Positions 21,390 to 37,768 of a stretch of 37,768 nucleotides of DNA are shown piece by piece (the first letter of the stretch is position 1; every line of letters starts with the position of its first letter). The notes under the pieces were generated by a model. The model made no database searches. It was not told the DNA's origin and worked only from the letters and a program-made list of their open reading frames with translations. A program made the position numbers and the translations under genes. This stretch comes from Dehalococcoidaceae bacterium. Lineage in GTDB: Bacteria; Chloroflexota; Dehalococcoidia; Dehalococcoidales; CSSed11-197. The stretch is from NCBI GenBank assembly GCA_016928015.1, contig JAFGLQ010000018.1:1-37768 (forward strand). The letters are read 5' to 3'.

Positions 21390-22307
21390 ATGGCAAAAAA
21401 GTATGATGTTGTAATTGTCGGCGGTGGGCCCGCCGGTTTGACAGCCGGCCTGTATGCTGCGAGGGACCGGTTCCAGACACTCATAATAGAAAGGGCTGTT
21501 ATCGGTGGCAATATCACCAATGCCGAAGAAGTGGACAACTATCCCGGCTACCCGGAAGGTATAAGCGGTGTTGAATTGACGGCTAAAATGCACGAGCAAG
21601 CCACTAAACACGGCGCTGAAACGTTGAGCGCTGACGTAAACTCTATTGAAATAATCGATGGCATCAAGCATATTCGTACCAGCGAAGGCGATTTCCAGGC
21701 TGGAGCGGTCATTATTGCCAGCGGCACCGAAAGAGCAAAACTGGAAGTAGAGGGCGAAAAAGAATTCACCGGTCGGGGGGTTTCCTACTGTGCCACCTGT
21801 GACGGGCCCTTTTTCAAAGGTAAAAAAGTGGCCGTAGTGGGTGGAGGCAACGCCGCTCTTTACGAAGCGCTACATTTGTCCAAGTTTGCCGCCAAGGTTT
21901 ACCTGATACACCGTCGTGATGCTTACCGGGCGACCATGGCAGTACAGGAAAAAATGAAACAAAACCCGGTAATCGAACCCGTGCTGAGTGCCGTCGTTTC
22001 AAAAATCAGAGGCGGGGACAAAGTGAGTGCCCTGGAACTCAGCGGTACCGGCGACGGCAAAATTTTCGAACTGGAAGTCGATGGAATATTCGTATCGGTA
22101 GGCCTTATTCCCAATACCTCATTTGTAAAATCCGTTATTGAACTTGACGGTCATGGCTCGATTAAGGTGGACGAAAAACTGCAAACCAGTGCCAGTGGTA
22201 TTTTTGCCGCCGGTGATATTCGCAGCCACTCGATACGCCAGGTAGTGACCGCTGCCGGTGACGGAGCCCATGCCGCATTCCATGTCCGGGAATATCTGGA
22301 AGCTTAG
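21390..22307 (+). CDS. trxB: Thioredoxin reductase
   Basis: 305 aa: VIVGGGPAGLTAGLYAAR, CATCDGPFFKGKKVAVVGGGNAA, FAAGDIRSHSIRQVVTAAGDGAHAA; SD AAGGAG. Confidence 0.96.
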   Translation: MAKKYDVVIVGGGPAGLTAGLYAARDRFQTLIIERAVIGGNITNAEEVDNYPGYPEGISGVELTAKMHEQATKHGAETLSADVNSIEIIDGIKHIRTSEGDFQAGAVIIASGTERAKLEVEGEKEFTGRGVSYCATCDGPFFKGKKVAVVGGGNAALYEALHLSKFAAKVYLIHRRDAYRATMAVQEKMKQNPVIEPVLSAVVSKIRGGDKVSALELSGTGDGKIFELEVDGIFVSVGLIPNTSFVKSVIELDGHGSIKVDEKLQTSASGIFAAGDIRSHSIRQVVTAAGDGAHAAFHVREYLEA

Positions 22308-34962: not shown

Positions 34963-36108
34963 TTAAGAGGGCTGTTCCGGCAAAAAACGCCAGAAAACCT
35001 CGTTGCCCAGCAGCCTGCCCTTCGGTGTCAATGACAGGCTGTTTTCTTTACGCGAGAGCAGTCCCAGGTCTACAAGTTCGCTGATCTGACAAGAATAGTG
35101 TTTTAAAAGATCAATTCCGTACTCCCGGTTGAACCTGGCAATATCGGCCCCGTTTTCCAACCGCAGGGCGAGTATTACCGCTTCTGCCAGTTGTAAATCG
35201 CAACCGGTTTCTTCGTCGGTTTCAATCAACATAGCCGCCCCGCTGCAAACCAGGTAGATATATTCGTCCAGGCAGGCCACATTGGTTCTGCGATGCTTTT
35301 CCAGGTAGGAACTGGCCGCCACCCCCAACCCCAGGTAAGGCTCCATCAACCAGCAGGACAGGTTATGCCGGCATTCGTAGCCGGGTTTTGCCCAGTTTGA
35401 AATCTCGTAATGCCGGTAGCCGTACCCATCCAGCATGGCTTCCGCCAGCTCATATTGTCCGGCAGCCATATCCGGGTCCAGCGGCGGCAGTATGCCGGCT
35501 TCAATCTGCCCGGCCAGAATGGCAGTTGCTTCCAGGCTCAAACAGTATAGTGATAAATGCCGGGGCCCAAGGCTCGCTGCCAGGTTCAGGGTTTTTTCCC
35601 AGGTCTCGATACCCTGCCCGGGCAACCCGTAAATCAGGTCCATGTTAATGTTATCGAACCCTGAACGGCAGGCTGTTCGGAAAGCTGCAAGAGCTTCACT
35701 GGCAGTGTGCAGCCTGCCCAGCAGGCCAAGCTCATCGTCGTTTAAGCTCTGGACGCCAATACTCAGCCGGTTCACACCGCAGTTTCTCAGGTCTTCCATA
35801 TAACCGGATGTAAGCATACCCGGGTTCATTTCTACCGTAATCTCGGCTTGTTTGTCTATCGTAAAAGCCTGCCCGATACAATCAAACAATTCCGCGAACT
35901 GGCCTGCCGTCATCAAACTCGGCGTACCACCGCCAAAATAAATACTTTTCAAGTGGAATCTGCCTGAATGGTTGCTGATTTCGCGTTTCAGGCATTCGAG
36001 ATATACAGGTATATCCTGCTCCCTGTTTTCAGTTGAAACAAACGAACAGTAGTAACACCGGCGCCGGCAGAATGGAAAATGAAGATAAAGTCCGATTGAC
36101 TCGCGCAT
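34963..36108 (-). CDS. hemW: HemW-like radical SAM protein (coproporphyrinogen III oxidase-like)
   Basis: GLYLHFPFCRRRCYYCSFVS (CX3CX2C), IYFGGGTPSLM, VEMNPGM, RLSIGVQSLNDDELGLLGRLH, NINMDLIYGLPGQ. Lacks the fourth Cys typical of true HemN. Confidence 0.9.
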   Translation of the reverse strand: MRESIGLYLHFPFCRRRCYYCSFVSTENREQDIPVYLECLKREISNHSGRFHLKSIYFGGGTPSLMTAGQFAELFDCIGQAFTIDKQAEITVEMNPGMLTSGYMEDLRNCGVNRLSIGVQSLNDDELGLLGRLHTASEALAAFRTACRSGFDNINMDLIYGLPGQGIETWEKTLNLAASLGPRHLSLYCLSLEATAILAGQIEAGILPPLDPDMAAGQYELAEAMLDGYGYRHYEISNWAKPGYECRHNLSCWLMEPYLGLGVAASSYLEKHRRTNVACLDEYIYLVCSGAAMLIETDEETGCDLQLAEAVILALRLENGADIARFNREYGIDLLKHYSCQISELVDLGLLSRKENSLSLTPKGRLLGNEVFWRFLPEQPS

Positions 36109-36117
36109 TATTGGTTG

Positions 36118-36126
36118 ATTATAACA
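36118..36126 (-). promoter_or_regulatory. Extended -10 (TGTTATAAT) immediately upstream of hemW
   Basis: Minus strand TGTTATAATCAACCAATAATG: TATAAT ends 9 nt before the ATG. Confidence 0.5.
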
Positions 36127-36226
36127 GATGGCTGCATACTGACCCTAAAGACTTACCGGGCCGCCAGTCTGATAAAAACTATATAACGGCCTGCCGGCAG
36201 TAGTTCAGATGAGTGAATACGATATA

Positions 36227-36256
36227 TTGACACGGCTTAATTGGTATGCTTATAAT
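36227..36256 (+). promoter_or_regulatory. Near-consensus sigma70 promoter upstream of the arsEFG-like operon
   Basis: TTGACA (36227-36232), 18-bp spacer, TATAAT (36251-36256). Confidence 0.8.
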
Positions 36257-36284
36257 ACTATAAGCGTAAATGCGCATATAGTAT
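36255..36284. promoter_or_regulatory. Long interrupted palindrome, candidate repressor operator
   Basis: ATACTATA-a-GCG-taaatg-CGC-a-TATAGTAT overlapping the end of the -10 and the expected transcription start. Confidence 0.65.
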
Positions 36285-36416
36285 TTTAGTATCCTAATAG
36301 AGGTAGTTGCCGGCACGGAGAAGTAATTTTGGAATATTTCCAATATCGGGCAACAGTTTGGTTTTCAATTTCATTTCGCTGTATGGTAAATTAATATGAC
36401 AAAAGAGGTGAAAATA

Positions 36417-36662
36417 ATGAACATTAAGGTATTGGGTCCCGGCTGCGCAAAATGCCACAAACTCAACCAGCTGGTCAAAGAGGCGTTGGATGACTTGAAA
36501 ATGGAGGCTGACCTGGAATATATACAGGACATGAGTAAAATTATGGAATATCCCATACTTACCACTCCTGGGCTGGTCATTAACGAAAAGGTGGTTTCTG
36601 CCGGCAGGGTGCCATCCAAACAGGATATTATCAGCATGATAGAAAAAGCGAAGGCTGCCTAG
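36417..36662 (+). CDS. Small thioredoxin-like redox-active disulfide protein (ArsE-like)
   Basis: MNIKVLGPGCAKCHKLNQLVKEALDDL with CAKC and TTPGLVINEKVVSAG (cis-Pro loop); start at 36417 preferred over 36396 because GAGGTG lies just upstream. Confidence 0.85.
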   Translation: MNIKVLGPGCAKCHKLNQLVKEALDDLKMEADLEYIQDMSKIMEYPILTTPGLVINEKVVSAGRVPSKQDIISMIEKAKAA

Positions 36663-36705
36663 TTTAACATGGTTATTTCAATACTCCACAAACAGGAGAG
36701 AAAGT

Positions 36706-37185
36706 ATGATAAAGGGTAAATCAATACTATTGGTAGCGACGTTAGCAGTTTTGGTAATCGCAAGCCTGGCAGCATGTAACGGCTCGAACGGAAATACAAC
36801 CACGCCGAGAACCACCACCGGCCCTGCCGATCTGGTAGAAGTAACTTTCTTTTTTGAATCCGATAATTGCTTCTGCCTCGACCTGGCGGTGCAGTGGGTT
36901 GATACCGTAATGACGGAAGACTATGCCAGCGAACTTGCCGGCGGCAAACTGACCTACGACCGGTACGACACCCGCGACGCGGAAACCGCACCTCTGATGG
37001 AACAATTCAACGCAACCAAGTTCGCATTTTTCATTACAACCCACCACGGCGAAACCATCAATACCTGGCAGGTCAGCCGCATCTGGATGTATACCGATAC
37101 CAGCGGTACCAACGCACAGCTTAAAGAAAAATTCTTCGGTGAACTGCACCGCAACCTGGATAAAGCGCTCTACGGAGAATCCTAA
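36706..37185 (+). CDS. ArsF-like predicted lipoprotein with thioredoxin-like domain
   Basis: Signal peptide with lipobox LAAC; VEVTFFFESDNCFCLDLAVQWVDTVMTEDYASELAGGKLTYDRYDTRDAETAPLMEQF; SD AGGAG; sits between ArsE-like and ArsG-like genes. Confidence 0.75.
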   Translation: MIKGKSILLVATLAVLVIASLAACNGSNGNTTTPRTTTGPADLVEVTFFFESDNCFCLDLAVQWVDTVMTEDYASELAGGKLTYDRYDTRDAETAPLMEQFNATKFAFFITTHHGETINTWQVSRIWMYTDTSGTNAQLKEKFFGELHRNLDKALYGES

Positions 37186-37768
37186 TGGCATGGCTCTCGG
37201 ATTTTTTACACAACATATTCGTTGACACAGATGTCACCATATTCGCCGCATTGCTTCTGGGCCTGATGGCATCCGTCGGCCCTTGCACCATGGCAACCAA
37301 CGTAGCCTCCATTGCCTACATCAGCCGCCGCATAACGGACCGGAGGTATGCCGTCCTGGCCAGCCTCCTCTATTCCCTGGGCAGGATGATAACTTACACC
37401 CTGCTGGGAGTATTGATAATCGCCATCGGGCTGGAAGTGCCCGCGATCCGCAACTTCCTGGAGGGTGTGGGCGTCTATGTACTGGGCCCGCTGTTGATAA
37501 TTGCCGGCTTTCTTATGCTCATTGCCGACCGGATATCGTTCGGCGGTGGCGGCAGGCTGGCTGCGCTGGGCAACAAGGTGTCGGACTGGGGGCTCTTGGG
37601 GGCTTTATTCATGGGTATGATTTTTGCCCTGGCATTTTGCCCTTATGTAGCCGTGCTTTTCTTTGCTGTTCTGATACCCATGGCCCTTACCAGTACCGGC
37701 GGCGTATTCCTGCCTCCCCTGTTCGCCATCGGTACCGGCCTGCCCGTGATCCTGTTCGGCGTGCTGAT
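37185..37768 (+). CDS. CcdA/DsbD-like membrane protein, ArsG-family permease-like (partial, runs off the right edge)
   Basis: ATG at 37185 overlaps the arsF-like stop (TAATG). MAWLSDFLHNIFVDTDVTIFAALLLGLMASVGPCTMATNVASIAYISRR...ALAFCPYVAVLFFAVLIPMAL; paired GPC and FCP cysteines; multiple TM segments. Confidence 0.82.
   Translation, partial: MAWLSDFLHNIFVDTDVTIFAALLLGLMASVGPCTMATNVASIAYISRRITDRRYAVLASLLYSLGRMITYTLLGVLIIAIGLEVPAIRNFLEGVGVYVLGPLLIIAGFLMLIADRISFGGGGRLAALGNKVSDWGLLGALFMGMIFALAFCPYVAVLFFAVLIPMALTSTGGVFLPPLFAIGTGLPVILFGVL

Follow-up and report, generated by a model that had tools for sequence, protein, structure and literature searches.

An arsEFG-like operon of Dehalococcoidia linked to a predicted exported lipoyl carrier

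The window genes and their promoter

The window, by which is meant the whole 37,768-nucleotide stretch that was analysed, is the entire contig C41 of its own 1.6-Mb genome (G000). Its right edge carries three tightly packed plus-strand genes, all of them where the first-pass annotation had placed them, together with a promoter and an operator-like dyad:

36227..36256, plus strand: sigma-70 type promoter TTGACA-N18-TATAAT upstream of arsE, with 12/12 consensus matches
36254..36285, no strand: operator-like dyad AATACTATA-N14-TATAGTATT, an inverted repeat that overlaps the -10 box
36417..36662, plus strand: arsE-like gene for an 81-aa thioredoxin-fold protein with a GCAKC motif (TIGR00412, PF13192)
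36706..37185, plus strand: arsF-like gene for an exported lipoprotein of thioredoxin fold with CFC instead of CxxC (NF040494 below cut-off; AlphaFold model; motif alignment)
37185..37768, plus strand: arsG-like gene for a CcdA/DsbD-type membrane protein, first 194 aa (NF040495; DsbD_2 7.5e-16)

The first of these genes starts at the ATG at 36417, which is preceded by a AAGAGGTG ribosome site. Its product, described earlier as an 81-aa CAKC thioredoxin-like protein, is indeed an ArsE, scoring 98.1 bits against the NCBIfam model TIGR00412 (MTH895/ArsE; cut-off 62) and matching Pfam PF13192. The cysteine pair is kept in 72/72 ArsE homologues that adjoin arsG, and 1ilo represents a solved relative of the sister-genome ArsE protein. 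The arsF product is 159 aa long, carries the lipobox LAAC and gives a thioredoxin-like AlphaFold model (pLDDT 82.5), for which Foldseek returned PDI and thioredoxin domains, all of them weak matches (E 2.6e-3 or worse), in agreement with the lipoprotein of thioredoxin fold that had been described. Its score against NF040494 is 28.3 bits, which fails the cut-off of 60, with the sister-genome ArsF at 27.9, and in the motif alignment it has CFC where most ArsF relatives have CxxC. In one sister genome (G002, L021:6974-7483) ArsF looks circularly permuted, with the CFC-bearing first strand-helix unit at the C-terminus and in frame, which may be an assembly artefact.

The window part of ArsG, cut to 194 aa by the contig end, passes the cut-off of NF040495 with 201 bits against 200, and the complete sister-genome protein reaches 251.8 bits. 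The protein also matches Pfam DsbD_2 (7.5e-16) and DsbD_TM, as was anticipated for a CcdA/DsbD-like permease with GPC...FCP cysteines; the GPC cysteine (C34) is kept in 85/86 homologues and the FCP cysteine (C152) in 86/86. When the ArsG profile was compared by sequence with solved structures there was no match. The earlier arsE-arsF-arsG call is thus largely right at family level, holding for ArsE and ArsG through their NCBIfam scores and failing for ArsF, with its low score and its CFC motif. A trxB-like ORF is present at 21390-22307, 14.1 kb from the arsEFG genes, as had been reported to within rounding.

The arsE promoter is the sole perfect sigma-70 site within 36000-37768. The arms of the dyad that overlaps it were sought genome-wide (1.6 Mb) with a pattern allowing 10-26 bases between them. 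The search gave two sites in total, and a control pattern gave 0. The one further site (G000:C22:13140-13179) lies in the intergenic region that separates an arsP-like gene from an acr3-arsR pair, and the ArsR of that pair carries an ECCVCEV box, which we take to be an As(III) sensor box. We infer that the window genes are part of an ars regulon, though arsR and arsP do not adjoin them here, and that an ArsR would bind the dyad at 36254-36285. The arsenic link that had been suspected is borne out by this common operator-like dyad in the genome itself and by arsR, arsP-like, acr3, arsA and arsD neighbours in relatives. At the level of sequence the window genes are an arsenic-linked thiol module.

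The operon beyond the contig end

The first-pass annotation had proposed looking past the contig end for further ars genes or a molybdo-enzyme. Contig C65 of the same genome opens, in reverse, with the end of arsG, overlapping C41 by 106 bp of which 100 are identical. The six differences all fall in third codon positions, so that the protein is identical; they look like strain variation in a MAG, and may also reflect a duplicated gene. C65 supplies the remaining arsG sequence as 75 aa, 34 of them common to the window part, and past its end come, in order, the gene for a glycine-cleavage H-protein-like carrier (here called GcvHx), lipB and lipA. As GcvHx lies off the window's contig, and the two contigs differ at 6 silent positions in their overlap of 106 bp, the join depends on synteny. 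A Mo-hydroxylase does follow the operon downstream on C65 (L003:3667-7719, of the xanthine-dehydrogenase family, with a Tat-signal 2Fe-2S subunit), whereas arsR and arsP, rather than following, precede arsE in sister genomes. The Mo-hydroxylase genes were rejected as a part of the module, as they do not adjoin lipA in G031.

The sister genomes, which are MAGs and belong to Dehalococcoidia, as do the related genomes with named database records, provide the synteny. The order arsR-arsP-arsE-arsF-arsG-GcvHx-lipB-lipA is found on a single contig in G004, where it stands beside lepA, in G002, where it stands beside lepA and hemW, and in G031 on one 1.38-Mb contig. A single contig of G003, again beside lepA and hemW, has the same order from arsP onwards. 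G001 keeps the set with GcvHx moved ahead of arsP, its contigs C130 and C8 meeting inside arsP. Since sister genomes keep both the arsE-arsF-arsG set and its location beside hemW-lepA, a chance gene set is excluded. The window very probably ends inside an arsenic operon, and GcvHx very likely belongs to this operon. The ArsP-like permease matches PF03773 but reaches no NCBIfam cut-off, and two of the ArsP-like genes (G006:C14:11160-12149, L211; G375:C2:25030-26022, L210) have one in-frame TGA each, possibly selenocysteine or a frame problem.

GcvHx also stands among ars genes of a second architecture. G375 has it as a single run of genes, arsA-arsR-arsD-x-CcdA-GcvHx-lipB-lipA; in G000 (C97) and G031 the order is arsR-arsD-arsA-(x)-CcdA-GcvHx, and G006 has a rearranged form of the same cluster with acr3. 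All four ArsD copies have an intact CC....C, and CxC is kept in the ArsRs. GcvHx is thus linked to ars genes in two different operon types, for which reason chance was rejected as an explanation.

How general is this association? An ArsG survey took in 80 loci from Bacteroidota, Chloroflexota, DPANN archaea and others, and in the 76 that were readable found ArsE at 63, ArsF at 70, ArsP-like proteins at 62, ArsR at 58 and Acr3 at 25. At least one of arsR, arsP, acr3, arsA or arsD lies within 5 kb of arsG in 73 of the 76, which marks ArsEFG as a widespread arsenic module. It does not need GcvHx, since most ArsG operons are without that gene, which was found only in three families of one order. 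ArsG forms a single protein with an ArsF-like domain at two loci on the Actinomycetota side (L110, L115), a fusion that resembles the arrangement of DsbD.

GcvHx and its lipoate supply

GcvHx proteins, 190-280 aa in length, carry a twin-arginine signal and a lipobox cysteine, have a linker rich in Thr, Ser and Pro (in G001 short or missing) and end in a domain of the glycine-cleavage H-protein type (PF01597, 3.7e-22). A model of this domain gave H-protein structures as its Foldseek matches (3a7a_B, E 4.9e-12, TM 0.88 of target), and the protein scores 20.6 bits against the TIGR01409 model (cut-off 16.7) and 68.1 bits against the GcvH equivalog TIGR00527, which fails the cut-off of 115.85. The lipobox is present in 18/18 GcvHx and the twin-arginine motif in 17/18, the remaining one being cut by a contig end, while the lipobox cysteine and the lipoyl lysine are invariant in the 17/17 aligned sequences. 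One extra cysteine in the mature part is kept in 17/18. From the Tat motif, the lipobox, the conserved lysine and the linked lipB-lipA it is highly likely that GcvHx is exported and, with a little less assurance, likely that it is lipoylated. Lipoylation in the cytoplasm would agree with a Tat system that exports the protein after folding and modification.

Twelve of the 18 exported GcvHx genes are beside ars genes. Of the other six, two have lipA and redox genes as neighbours (a DsbD_2 protein among them in one case), a Mo-hydroxylase-like gene adjoins another two, and the last two are in different surroundings. The pair with the Mo-hydroxylase-like neighbour is in G006 (L052, L053), the neighbour being similar to the FAD subunit of a Mo-hydroxylase, so there may be further uses for exported lipoyl proteins. 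One G000 GcvHx cluster (L047) has rhodanese-like and DoxX/MauE genes. More distant relatives of the carrier were also seen: at L057 (G015:C165) two short related proteins adjoin a GcvH-like protein that has an N-terminal extension and is not exported, with ArsE-like, second thioredoxin-like, CcdA-like and Acr3 neighbours, making this another lipoyl-type protein in an arsenite locus; and in an Actinomycetota MAG (L110:2787-3365) a GcvH-like gene that seems to lack the lipoyl lysine is divergent from arsR-acr3-arsE-arsE-trx-arsF/arsG fusion. CXC ArsFs were found in two other Dehalococcoidia (L104, L106), without GcvHx in the stretch read, which weakened a tie of the ArsF CXC motif to GcvHx.

A search of 61 related genomes found no E2 of 2-oxoacid dehydrogenase (PF00198) in the GcvHx genomes, and no match to glycine-cleavage P-protein (PF02347) in G000-G006, G031, G044 and G055. 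In genomes with E2 or P-protein, lipA is often near those genes (for instance G008:C89, G041:C35, G043:C9, G047:C71 and G060:C61). With such relatives left out of the count, lipA is present in 7/9 GcvHx genomes against 1/44 others (Fisher p 2e-6, with genomes as non-independent samples); it was not found in the GcvHx carriers G044 and G055, which are draft genomes. As no E2 or P-protein was detected in the GcvHx genomes, the main recipients of the lipoate made there would seem to be exported carriers. The genus also keeps a short cytosolic GcvH-like protein (G000:C78, L049; G003:C4, L224; G002:C45, L225), which may use lipoate as well.

Of the cassette enzymes, LipA and LipB each form one side of a branch, with support of 99/97 and 100/100, respectively. 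The cluster motifs of the cassette LipA are intact. The LipB of GcvHx cassettes (L003:10491-11174 and seven homologues, 8/8) has Gln at the usual catalytic Lys position; as a specific mark this is weakened by two PDH-linked LipBs with Glu there.

Candidate roles for the predicted exported lipoyl arm

What, then, might such an operon do? Our proposal is that arsE-arsF-arsG-GcvHx-lipB-lipA is a metalloid-regulated operon for a thiol relay that runs outward to a lipoyl arm; we see about equal odds for and against this. As(III) entering the cell would cause an ArsR-type repressor to leave the arsE promoter, as suggested by the dyad in common with acr3-arsR/arsP and by the ArsR CxC boxes. In the cytoplasm LipB and LipA would lipoylate GcvHx, and the Tat system would then export the folded, modified protein to become a membrane-anchored lipoprotein. 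ArsE would give electrons to the two-cysteine CcdA-like ArsG, by which they would cross the membrane and reach ArsF, the GcvHx lipoyl disulfide without an intermediate, or both. Outside, the dihydrolipoyl dithiol would bind or reduce arsenicals and block their re-entry, perhaps with the conserved GcvHx cysteine as a third sulfur ligand, and the arm would work alongside the ArsP-like and Acr3 permeases.

The electron path from ArsE through ArsG to ArsF and the lipoyl arm is favoured by the kept ArsG cysteines, by membership of the DsbD/CcdA superfamily and by the ArsF-ArsG fusions, and the invariant cysteines lend good support to the thiol relay that the first-pass annotation had offered as its own alternative. 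The CXC motif of ArsF speaks against the relay, being atypical for a thioredoxin-type donor. The dihydrolipoyl group binds As(III) strongly, and an exported, reduced lipoyl arm is therefore a plausible arsenic binder or reductant. GcvHx is more likely than not to be reduced by ArsG, and the chance that it acts directly on arsenic is somewhat better than even.

The same genes can be read in other ways. In an ordinary ArsEFG system ArsE and ArsF would reduce nitroaromatic or other organic arsenicals and ArsG would export the product, leaving the lipoyl genes as passengers. The family scores of ArsE and ArsG suit such a system, as do the ars genes at 73/76 ArsG loci across many phyla, nearly all of them without GcvHx, but it accounts poorly for an ArsF that is CXC and under its HMM cut-off, for the linkage of GcvHx-lipB-lipA to two ars operon types and for CcdA-type cysteines, both present in essentially all ArsG, that would be odd in a pure efflux pump; we consider it unlikely. 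The cysteines of ArsE, ArsG and ArsF might instead hand over As(III), not electrons, with the exported dihydrolipoyl arm as final As(III) receptor outside. This would suit the clusters of G375, G031 and G000 (C97), which have ArsA and ArsD, no internal ArsB or Acr3, and only the CcdA-like protein and GcvHx, and it would agree with the intact As(III) cysteines of ArsD, the CXC of ArsF and the one conserved extra cysteine in 17/18 GcvHx. However, Acr3 genes occur elsewhere in G000 (L207) and beside the cluster in G006 (L051), and CcdA/DsbD proteins are known as electron conduits, and we hold such a hand-over to be improbable.

A further reading would make GcvHx an extracytoplasmic sulfur carrier, like LbpA or the SoxY arm, with regeneration by a CcdA-type protein in the way that SoxV/SoxW regenerate SoxY, and with ars genes as neighbours for other reasons. 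LbpA, a GcvH-like lipoyl protein, is essential for sulfur oxidation (PMC6067878), and in sox-type clusters the SoxV protein is orthologous to CcdA, while the regulator SoxR belongs to the ArsR family (PMC10451225). The rhodanese-like and DoxX/MauE genes of the one G000 cluster point the same way, yet the neighbours bear the As(III)-binding ArsR CxC and ArsD CC....C, and no shdr or sox genes were seen beside GcvHx in the clusters read, the labelling of which was made mainly with local references and is not exhaustive; a sulfur carrier seems quite doubtful to us. Largely refuted is the notion of arsG as an ordinary cytochrome c maturation CcdA that has arsE and arsF as its thioredoxins. The DsbD_2 and DsbD_TM matches allow for this, but ArsG passes the HMM of its own family, ars neighbours are found nearly everywhere, and the ccs and resA genes named earlier as the company such a protein would keep were recognised neither in the window nor at the sister loci.

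We return to the exported dithiol relay, in which a Tat-exported, membrane-anchored H-protein homologue with its own LipB-LipA and CcdA-type reduction would serve as a dithiol arm of arsenic detoxification, and to which we assign a probability of roughly 0.45. That arsenicals attack lipoate is textbook matter, and the enzymes from which lipoate is known are cytoplasmic or mitochondrial. If the proposal is true, the usual target of arsenic poisoning becomes the defence, and the lipoyl group has a function beyond the cytoplasm. What would be new in the finding is an exported lipoyl carrier accompanied by lipoylation genes of its own; the literature searched (open-licence papers only) offered nothing relevant on lipoyl proteins that are exported or on ars operons with lipoyl genes. 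A Tat-exported carrier with dedicated lipoylation genes and two ars operon types would, if real, represent a new place and a new job for lipoate. The proposal also bears on whether ArsG pumps arsenicals or conducts electrons, and the invariant cysteines and ArsF-ArsG fusions suggest electrons.

Among the closest known systems is the ArsEFG of Shewanella, which Chen, Zhang and Rosen are said to have described in 2019 as detoxifying roxarsone and nitarsone. The order arsE-arsF-arsG, the passing of the ArsE and ArsG models and the nearby arsR and other ars genes in relatives are the same; the low-scoring CXC ArsF and the extension of the operon by an exported lipoyl protein and lipB-lipA are different. 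Roxarsone may be a candidate substrate of the window ArsEFG, as a reading by likeness. The DsbD/CcdA and SoxV-SoxW relays likewise combine a two-cysteine membrane conduit with a thioredoxin in the cytosol and a thioredoxin-fold protein that is exported, and the natural fusions of ArsF with ArsG are DsbD-like, whereas the proposed last acceptor here is a lipoyl arm and not only a CXXC protein, and there is linkage to arsenic genes. GcvH has the fold, lipoyl-lysine region and PF01597 domain of GcvHx, to which the latter adds a Tat-lipoprotein leader and a Thr/Pro-rich linker, while falling below the equivalog cut-off in genomes where no P-protein was detected. LbpA of the sHdr pathway is also a GcvH-like lipoyl protein that serves a purpose other than glycine cleavage and has lipoylation genes linked to it, but belongs to a cytoplasmic system with sHdr genes and lipS1/sLpl, in contrast to the Tat signal, lipobox, lipB-lipA and ars and CcdA-like neighbours of GcvHx. 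Finally, the second architecture has the arsA, arsR and arsD of ArsA-ArsD-ArsR arsenite operons, with the As(III) cysteines intact, but the place expected for an arsB or acr3 pump is occupied by the CcdA-like protein, GcvHx and lipB-lipA.
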